From positions 4,022,588 through 4,086,587 of the forward strand of contig CM018603.1 in the NCBI GenBank assembly GCA_009192285.1: a stretch of DNA of 64,000 bases. Reading direction: 5' to 3'. The notes beneath the pieces were generated by a model. The model searched no databases and was not told the DNA's origin. It saw only the letters and a program-made list of their open reading frames with translations. Source of the DNA: Morchella semilibera. Its lineage: Eukaryota > Ascomycota > Pezizomycetes > Pezizales > Morchellaceae. Of this stretch, positions 25,958 through 34,763 are shown in pieces (the first letter of the stretch is position 1; the number at the start of each line of letters is the position of its first letter). The translations under genes were made by a program, and so were the position numbers.

Positions 25958-27076
25958 TTAATCGCACACGGGGTTATCTTCTGGGCTTTCATCGGCCTTG
26001 TAGATGCGGTATTCTTCTGGTACCTCTTGACCCTGACTCTCCATATGCTTGATATATATTCTCAATATTGTCTTGTCTGGGAGGGAATGTGCGGTAGTTA
26101 AATCTCTCGTCGATAAAGGGCCCGGCCCTAACACAGCCCCGTTTTCTAAAAGAAGCTTGACAATATTTAAATACCCCTCTCGACAAGCAATTAGTAATGG
26201 TGTCCGGTTGTTGTCGCCTACTGCATTTAATGGCACTCCACAATCAATTAGGAGTCTACAAATCTCCTCACGACCATGGTATACGGCGAAATGTAGCGTG
26301 CTAAATGCAAGAATTCGGTTTCTTTCAAATTCTATACCTCGACCGAGACCAATTTGATACCGGACAATATGAATAAAGTTATAACGAATTGCGACACCCA
26401 TATTCATCCTGGAGAGGGGGAGGGGAAGGTTGAGGGGGGACCATCGTTGTGTAGCTATTGATTTGGCGCCGGGCTGGGGCACGTAGGACACTTTCTCTAA
26501 CAGAGAAACGATTTCGCTGTCTTTGGGATGCTGTCGGTCGTATGAGGAAATATGGTAAGGCCACTGAGAGACGACATAGCGTCCGAGGTGTCCTAAGACG
26601 GTCCTGGGTTTGGGAGGTAAAGCGAGCATCACACCCAAGCAGGTCTCAGCCGCCAATGCATGGGCTTCGCTAGTGGTCCAATGCCTCTTTTCTAGGTACT
26701 CGAGCACCGATAGATGTGCAAGCCGCATGACGTCTAGTGATTGATCGTAAATGACTAGGTTATGACAAAGCTTGAGAATTTTCTCCTTCGTCAATCTCAA
26801 ACTCTGGGAAAATGGACCTTCATTCTGGCTTGGTGCTAGAATAGCCTCAATCAGCTCTTGAGGGTGCAGTGGTCTGAAGGCGCACATGATCCATTGAAGA
26901 GCTCGCTTCGTGAGTACACTCGACTCTCGTGGTAGGACGATATGACTTTGAAGATCTGATTGTACGTCTCTTCAAGGCCTATTGGCAACTTCCCAAGCTC
27001 TTCCATCACATCCGCCTCGGTATGGAAGCGATCGCTATCACAGAGTTCCTTTATCTGGAGATTTACCCACATAAAC
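25958..27076 (-). pseudogene. NACHT-ankyrin STAND protein, 3' part (split by the retrotransposon)
   Basis: Downstream part of the gene whose 5' part is 34764-37367. It resumes at GTTT within the target duplication (27073-27076), giving FMWVNLQIKELCD, the usual continuation after the NACHT module. LGKLPIGLEETYNQIFKVI follows, then a helical linker and two ankyrin repeats (STLHFAVYHGREEICRLLID; NRTPLLIACREGYLNIVKLL), ending at the stop at 25958. A single-base loss near 26911-26920 moves the frame: ISSYHESRV is in one frame and TKRALQWIMCAFRPL in the next. Ankyrin repeats normally sense ligands in STAND proteins. Apart from the insertion and that indel the part is undamaged, suggesting recent inactivation or a consensus error. 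Confidence 0.8.
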
Positions 27077-27077
27077 C
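27073..27077. repeat. target-site duplication AAACC (left copy)
   Basis: Five bases directly abutting the left LTR (starting TGTAAAGG at 27078). The identical AAACC at 34690-34694 follows the right LTR. A 5-bp duplication is typical for Ty3/gypsy integration. Confidence 0.93.
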
Positions 27078-27466
27078 TGTAAAGGGATATCTCAGAAGTC
27101 ACTAAGATATGGCTAATGCTAAGCGATAGTTCTGTAGCTTTTAAACTTGTAATATTGTAGACCGGATTCCGTTCGCTTGAGAGGATGATGATTCCCCCAA
27201 GATGACGGGAATCCTACTAGCTATTTATACATGAAGGACCCCTCTTAAACCCGTTAACTCCTCCGATAGCAAATCTCCCGCAATGCCTACGCTACTGCTC
27301 CGACTTCCTACGAGGTGGGGTAACCAAGGGTCCACTCAGGAGGTGTGGTAGTGGTTGCCGAGTTATAACCGAACCCCGCTTCTGGGCGTCACTCTTCCAT
27401 CGCGCCGTCATACCAGGACAATACCATTGTACTACTAGTACCGCACTTCCAAGCAATCCTGTAACA
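27078..27466 (-). repeat. 3' LTR of the Ty3/gypsy element
   Basis: 389 bp, TG..CA ends. It is identical to the other LTR except for two transitions and absence of a 4-bp GTAC. A TATA box in coding orientation (TATAAATAG) lies at 27221-27229. Confidence 0.93.
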
Positions 27467-27480
27467 CTACTCCCCCTTCC
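27467..27480 (-). promoter_or_regulatory. polypurine tract
   Basis: Minus-strand GGAAGGGGGAGTAG immediately upstream of the 3' LTR, where plus-strand DNA priming is expected. Confidence 0.75.
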
Positions 27481-27559
27481 AAGCCGTCGTCCTCGACCGT
27501 TAAACCCTTTCATGAAAAAAACCCTGTGGGAAAAGCCATGAGGAGGGAAGGTATCGGGA

Positions 27560-33790: not shown

Positions 33791-34058
33791 CCTTGAAGAA
33801 TTCGATTGGGAGGTCGGGGGTGTTGATGCACCAAGGTAGAGGGGTAAACCAAGGTACCGAGTGCGCTAAGCCGTGAGAGTTCTGGCGAAGCGTTATGAGG
33901 ATGGAGGGGGTGGAGTTGGGCTCAAGGATATTTTCCTTGAAGGTGGCGATGGTGCGTGCTTCTGTGAAGAAGCCTTGGTGTTGGAGGTAGCCGCAGTAGA
34001 GATGTTCTGCGCTGCCTCGAGGGACGGAAAAGGAGGTTTCACAGGGGAAGCGAAGCAT
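33791..34058 (-). pseudogene. probable N-terminal Gag segment in a different frame
   Basis: The first ~89 codons of a frame starting at the ATG at 34058 have a protein-like sequence (ARTIATFKENILEPNSTPSI, PLPWCINTPDLPIEFFKD). The same frame then becomes a shadow of ORF 1. It is interpreted as the original Gag start, now out of frame. No family motif was recognised, so the call rests on position and composition. Confidence 0.4.
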
Positions 34059-34296
34059 GTACTAATCCTCTTGATCACTACTTCTTATACCGAGTGCCCG
34101 TGTACTATCCGTACCTAGCAATCACACAAGGTATTCGAAGTGTTGTCTTGAGAAATGTAGTAGGCTCGCTTATAGGAGGAGCAGAGTTGGACAGAGAGTC
34201 CAAAGATTTTCTCTGATGGCGACGTGGAGGCGGAGGTACCAGTAGATGGCTCTCTCCACAGTCATAGGGTATGCAATCGGATAAGGTACAATATAG

Positions 34297-34689
34297 TGTA
34301 AAGGGATATCTCAGAAGTCACTAAGATATGGCTAATGCCAAGCGATAGTTCTGTAGCTTTTAAACTTGTAATATTGTAGACCGGATTCCGTTCGCTTGAG
34401 AGGATGATGATTCCCCCAAGATGACGGGAATCCTACTAGCTATTTATACATGAAGGACCCCTCTTAAACCCGTTAACTCCTCCGATAGCAAATCTCCCGC
34501 AATGCCTACGCTACTGCTCCGACTTCCTACGAGGTGGGGTAACCAAGGGTCCACTCAGGAGGTGTGGTAGTGGTTGCCGAGTTATAACCGAACCCCGCTT
34601 CTGGGCGTACGTCACTCTTCCATCGCGCCGTCGTACCAGGACAATACCATTGTACTACTAGTACCGCACTTCCAAGCAATCCTGTAACA
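34297..34689 (-). repeat. 5' LTR of the Ty3/gypsy element
   Basis: 393 bp, TG..CA ends. Differs from the 3' LTR by two transitions and one extra GTAC (an ACGT-type slip). It contains a TATA box (minus-strand TATAAATAG, 34440-34448). Confidence 0.93.
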
Positions 34690-34694
34690 AAACC
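34690..34694. repeat. target-site duplication AAACC (right copy)
   Basis: Follows the right LTR directly. On the minus strand it reads GGTTT; its first G is the last base of a host intron ending GCATAG. Confidence 0.93.
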
Positions 34695-34763
34695 TATGCA
34701 AACTCAGCTCTTTGTTACCACAAGGTCGGGTGAGATGAATATAAAGAGACTGCCTTCACATAC

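Follow-up and report, generated by a model that had tools for sequence, protein, structure and literature searches.

The locus described here raises the question of what becomes of an NLR-like gene when an LTR retrotransposon inserts exactly at one of its intron/exon junctions. In the window, i.e., the whole stretch of 64,000 nucleotides that was analyzed, an earlier note had placed such an element in a NACHT-ankyrin gene on the minus strand. LTRs, target site duplication (TSD) and domain anatomy agree with this assignment, and the positions given for the element were correct. The retrotransposon is complete (27078-34689, 7612 bp) and certainly not a chance arrangement; the features of the locus are listed in Table 1.

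Table 1. Features of the host gene and of the inserted retrotransposon. Positions refer to the window; a slash marks a splice junction.
Feature	Position	Strand	Remarks
Upstream exons, N-terminal domain and Walker A	35421..36741	-	compared with M. snyderi protein P0001
Upstream introns	36388-36435, 36117-36164, 35667-35728, 35446-35506, 35364-35420	-	
Possible further intron	35955-36013	-	
Frame slip, N-terminal half	36052..36074	-	tblastn pieces in two frames overlap, relative to P0001
NACHT exon	34764..35363	-	NPHP3_N, E 1.2e-18; VIDALDECD stretch
Host intron	34694..34763	-	phase 2, 70 nt, GTATGT...GCATAG, splits Met codon of SDGM
TSD copy AAACC, intron side	34690..34694		minus strand holds native acceptor ...GCATAG/GTTT
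5' LTR	34297..34689	-	393 bp, TG...CA
Internal region, Ty3-type element	27467..34296	-	same sense as host gene
Gag, Ty3 capsid match	31480-32925	-	Pfam
Protease piece (weak aspartic protease)	30254-31057	-	Pfam, 23.5 bits, below curated cut-off of 28.2 bits
RT, two pieces	30114-30470 and 29844-30113	-	separated by in-frame stop
RNase H, integrase and Tf2-1-type SH3	27560-29773	-	Pfam
3' LTR	27078..27466	-	389 bp, TG...CA
TSD copy AAACC, downstream-exon side	27073..27077		27077 last "intron" base, 27076 exon start
Downstream exon: FMWVNLQ..., winged helix (GPIID_WHD), ankyrin repeats	25958..27076	-	ends near the end of P0001
Frame slip, downstream exon	26917..26935	-	relative to P0001 and 11 of 12 paralogs

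The host gene extends from about 36741 down to 25958, with a possible start at 37355 (weak match, 34%). Its identity as a NACHT-ankyrin gene, also proposed in the earlier note, is borne out by the NPHP3_N match, by the Walker motifs, and by an Ank_2 match of the C-terminal repeats (E 5.5e-14). The Walker A motif HGIPGAGKT, which was obtained by splicing the intron 35446-35506 by eye, has identical letters in the Morchella snyderi protein P0001 (DFP73DRAFT_634572), and we take the VIDALDECD stretch of the NACHT exon to be of the Walker B type. For the N-terminal region, a 99-aa piece from the window gave no Pfam match, and the region of the M. snyderi protein aligned to it matched NACHT_N (E 2.2e-08). 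The domain order of this protein (NACHT_N-type region, NPHP3_N/NACHT, winged helix, ankyrin repeats) also appears to be that of the window gene, whose N-terminal region may be of the NACHT_N type. In contrast to the M. snyderi protein, the window gene is split by the LTR element and carries two frame slips, and the two are only 55% identical over the 461 residues searched. A sequence search of the NACHT exon against solved structures gave no match, and scans of the window with Rfam (at gathering scores) and for tRNAs revealed nothing.

To establish where the coding sequence was originally joined, we fetched 12 of the 72 other matches to the NACHT exon in the assembly. These represent 11 distinct paralogous loci, since L062 and L063 show no difference in an alignment of 6,333 bases. 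All 12 contain an intron at the identical position within the Met codon, which is 50-72 nt long and ends with AG/GTTY; in two cases (L065, L066) the natural ending is CAG. The M. snyderi protein, which is encoded in one piece, reads KSDGMFMWVDLQIKE across the insertion site (also given as SDGMFMWVDLQIKE). Together, the paralogous introns and this protein indicate that the junction is real and that SDGM-FMWVNLQ was the original join.

The element lies precisely on this junction. On the minus strand the TSD reads GGTTT and comprises the final base of the intron and the first four bases of the exon, as had been noted before. Because the duplication copies the junction rather than dividing it, the native acceptor persists upstream of the element. 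At the other end, the terminal CA of the LTR and the first G of the TSD form a second acceptor, CCCTTTACAG/GTTT, at the downstream exon: the LTR end and the TSD join as ...CCCTTTACA+G/GTTT, giving a CAG acceptor, and the exon start after the element reads CCCTTTACAG/GTTTATG. A TSD beginning at the last G of the intron thus places an AG acceptor on both sides of the element, the native one and CA+G = CAG, and by deduction any TG...CA element in the same register should yield a CAG acceptor. The previous statement that the 3' splice site had been separated from the rest of the gene is not supported in this simple form, as the junction itself was duplicated and an acceptor re-formed downstream. 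For a random insertion into this gene with its 6-8 introns, the rough chance of landing on an acceptor junction is 0.6-0.8%, and with dozens of copies in the genome this placement needs no special targeting. Targeting of the family to splice junctions was considered and found unsupported, as the 13 full-length copies have 13 different 5-bp TSDs and a chance hit is not extraordinary.

The inserted element encodes Gag and Pol in the order protease, RT, RNase H and integrase, as in Ty3/gypsy elements, with the protease and the first RT piece (29.4 versus 29.6 bits) below their cut-offs and the second RT piece, RNase H and the integrase core above theirs. Its upstream ORFs had no Pfam match. A purine-rich stretch was seen by eye in front of the 3' LTR, and a repetitive GTCTCC/GGAGAC stretch (window 32860-32960) separates the Gag ORF from the upstream ORF. 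The TG...CA LTRs, the 5-bp TSD, the order Gag-protease-RT-RNase H-integrase and the presence of multiple copies are all shared with fungal Ty3/gypsy elements having a Tf2-1-like integrase end, whereas the in-frame stop codon in RT sets the window copy apart. With an RT frame of 89 aa, this copy does not possess an intact autonomous Pol.

At least 41 LTR matches of this family, two of them from the window, were found in the assembly (40 of 159 candidates scored). Elsewhere in the assembly, at least 42 relatives of the RT piece cover at least 84 of its 89 residues with an identity of at least 86% (150 of 491 candidates scored); 17 of the 42 listed have frames of 1000 aa or more, including one with a stop inside the match, compared to the 89-aa frame in the window. 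Matching 5-bp flanks were present at all 13 full-length copies examined, including that of the window, which is longer than 10 of the 12 others sampled. In addition, five of the 14 single-LTR loci fetched (L038, L042, L043, L045 and L046, representing four distinct sites) are directly flanked by matching 5-bp repeats, indicating that LTR-LTR recombination has removed copies of this family in the genome. A solo LTR is also a possible outcome at the NLR site.

Over 389 aligned bases, the LTRs of the window copy show 2 substitutions (99.5% identity), and they also differ by one 4-bp indel. The substitutions correspond to a poorly bounded age of 0.2 Myr (0.02-0.7) at a rate of 1.3e-8 per site per year and an equally poorly bounded 2.5 Myr (0.3-8.8) at 1.05e-9 per site per year, both rates not being derived from morels. 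The insertion had been called recent, which is true only loosely: 8 of the 13 family pairs sampled have no substitution, and only two have more than the window pair. From the nearest of 37 other LTRs of the family examined, the window LTRs diverge at 10 (left) and 12 (right) sites, compared to the 2 differences between them.

Restoring the order of the two gene halves had been reported to give an unbroken SDGM-FMWVNLQ reading. This is supported for the join itself, but the reading breaks twice, once at about 140 nt from the start of the downstream exon and once within the N-terminal half. In the downstream exon, the reading passes from FMWVNLQ...ISSY to SVLTKRALQW... in a different frame, and a stop codon ends the original frame after 74 codons. 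The M. snyderi protein is continuous at this site, and 11 of the 12 paralogs have an open frame of 300 codons or more, counted from the start of the exon following the conserved intron. The exception is L067, where a stop occurs after 34 codons of this exon and homology resumes in another frame, which may reflect a slip of its own or an additional intron; a frame break at this place is therefore not unique to the gene carrying the element. The slip in the N-terminal half was judged against the M. snyderi protein, as the paralogs are too diverged in this region. Unseen introns were rejected as an explanation for the slips, since the flanking residues are adjacent in the M. snyderi protein (the tblastn pieces touch or overlap) and leave no room. 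With the element and two frame slips, the host gene has no continuous coding capacity, and the slips alone would leave the allele broken. The implication of an otherwise intact gene was thus not confirmed, all the more as the paralogs, with the one exception, keep their downstream frame. On the other hand, we noticed no nonsense codon in frame within the aligned readings of the exons, and the motifs of the Walker type are preserved, which suggests that the gene probably kept its function until fairly recently.

What could still be made from the interrupted gene was evaluated by conceptual translation. Splicing at the native acceptor gives SDGM-FCYRIAWKCGTSSTMVLSWYDGAMEE, i.e., 26 further codons (FCYRIAWKC...) and a stop in the LTR, and retention of the intron gives SDGM-YVKAVSLYSSHPTLW, 15 codons with a stop inside the intron. 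Given that element and gene are in the same sense, transcripts likely form their 3' ends in the LTR. We propose that a Ty3/gypsy-type element integrated, presumably by the ordinary integrase action known for this family, at the 3' end of a conserved intron in an NLR-like gene, exactly on the splice junction, in the sense of the gene and with duplication of 5 bp. Transcripts would then terminate in the sense LTR, and the winged helix and the ankyrin repeats would be missing from any product. We are confident that the locus reflects such an ordinary LTR-element insertion into an NLR-like gene which is now most likely non-functional. Judged from its sequence, it most likely represents a dead NLR allele that is both transposon-interrupted and frame-shifted.

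The frame slips could have arisen before or after the insertion. If the NLR gene was already a pseudogene when the element arrived, the insertion would have had no functional effect. We regard this as a tentative alternative, somewhat doubtful but to be taken seriously, as the two slips are distant from the junction and one of the 12 fetched paralogs, L067, is likewise out of frame in the exon after the conserved intron. It is weakened by the retained Walker-type motifs and the lack of noticed in-frame nonsense codons in the aligned exons, and the number of slips is no greater than decay after insertion could give: with 3 changes per about 782 bp in the LTR pair, the roughly 2.3 kb of coding sequence might have acquired a few slips through post-insertion decay alone.

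Alternatively, the slips could be base-level errors of the assembly, in which case the retrotransposon would be the sole lesion and intact empty alleles would segregate. This is in keeping with the intact and pseudogene forms of one NLR known within Podospora anserina (nwdp-1/nwd6), as outlined in PMC12222747, but we consider it improbable. Other long frames of the assembly are open: all four RNA-polymerase matches are free of internal stops, and the best HSP70 match is open, with stops in 4 of 20 HSP70 matches (possibly unspliced introns or lesions). Besides, 11 of the 12 paralogs are in frame. Moreover, neither an empty site nor a second haplotype was found in the assembly (56.76 Mb, 23 contigs), where the 973-bp and 1106-bp flanks each match only themselves. 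The contig pairs C21/C22, C9/C10 and C12/C13 share genes and elements, which lie at almost equal offsets, so that some chromosomes are either present twice in the assembly or duplicated.

Segregation of empty and filled alleles in populations, as suggested in the earlier note, would be plausible by analogy to Podospora. In P. anserina, an NLR gene that is a pseudogene in the reference strain is described as intact in some other strains (PMC12222747), and in a het-v haplotype five genes are stated to be replaced by transposable elements, one type of which is Gypsy-Ty3 (PMC9262711). In the passages considered, transposable element clusters or pseudogene forms segregate at NLR/het loci such as het-v, nwdp-1/nwd6 and het-B (PMC9262711, PMC12222747, PMC10890737). 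Transposable elements at these allorecognition loci replace or flank genes, and within those passages none is placed on a splice junction, in contrast to the element in the window. Among the literature matches listed, titles and abstract openings mentioned no LTR element at a splice junction of a morel NLR gene, by which we do not claim its absence from print.

The re-formed acceptor suggests a further possibility, namely that insertions in the acceptor register are tolerated by splicing, with the whole element or a solo LTR (an intron of about 0.5 kb) being spliced out precisely. We consider this very unlikely; if true, LTR elements could lengthen introns of NLR genes, leave the protein unchanged and generate conditional or recoverable alleles. 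According to PMC9860276, introners can use bases of their TSDs for splice sites. However, introners are short, DNA-transposon-like and make spliced introns, whereas here the element is a 7.6-kb LTR element whose removal by splicing is hypothetical. That the spliceosome at least sometimes removes 34763-27077 (about 7.7 kb) as one giant intron, so that the insertion alone would not be a full knock-out, is a very improbable reading: the intact GTATGT donor, the re-formed CCCTTTACAG/GTTT with its pyrimidine tract, the natural CAG endings of two paralogous introns and the possible origin of introner splice sites from TSDs (PMC9860276) would permit it, but the 12 paralogous introns have just 50-72 nt, the native acceptor 70 nt from the donor would win, a sense-oriented element should bring its own 3'-end signals, and the product would still be spoiled by the frame slips.

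No homolog with more than 55% identity was found when the gene's read-through served as the query (scored were the 7,992 candidates with the most shared words; best 120 of 207 listed), and the 309-aa downstream ORF retrieved only distantly related ankyrin proteins (23 of 1,403 candidates). An identity of 55% for the best NLR homolog is low when set against RPB2, since the RPB2 exon of the assembly is, over 890 residues, 99% identical to an M. sextelata RPB2 cluster, and its identity to Tuber is 96%, which places the host in Morchella or in a very close relative. The gene may evolve fast, or the M. snyderi protein may, in view of the 55% identity, be a paralog rather than an ortholog, or other sequenced morels may lack the gene or carry it in a broken form. 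Within the assembly, the NACHT exon had 73 matches, counting contigs present twice and genes hit several times, and three of these contain internal stop codons. For an edible fungus, the NLR-like repertoire is thus large. Elsewhere in the window, four consecutive protein-kinase domain pieces are encoded on the minus strand (3310-3894, 6134-7165, 9185-9934 and 13011-13607), possibly forming a tandem array at 3310-13607.

In summary, the interruption of this NLR-like gene by an ordinary LTR element provides a clean case of a transposon-interrupted gene of this type in a morel genome rich in NACHT-type matches. The register of the insertion predicts two possible acceptors, the native one and the one derived from the LTR end, which is testable, and the re-formed acceptor is the one feature deserving specialist attention. 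Sampling of the site across populations would reveal whether morels harbor intact alongside broken NLR alleles, as is the case in Podospora.
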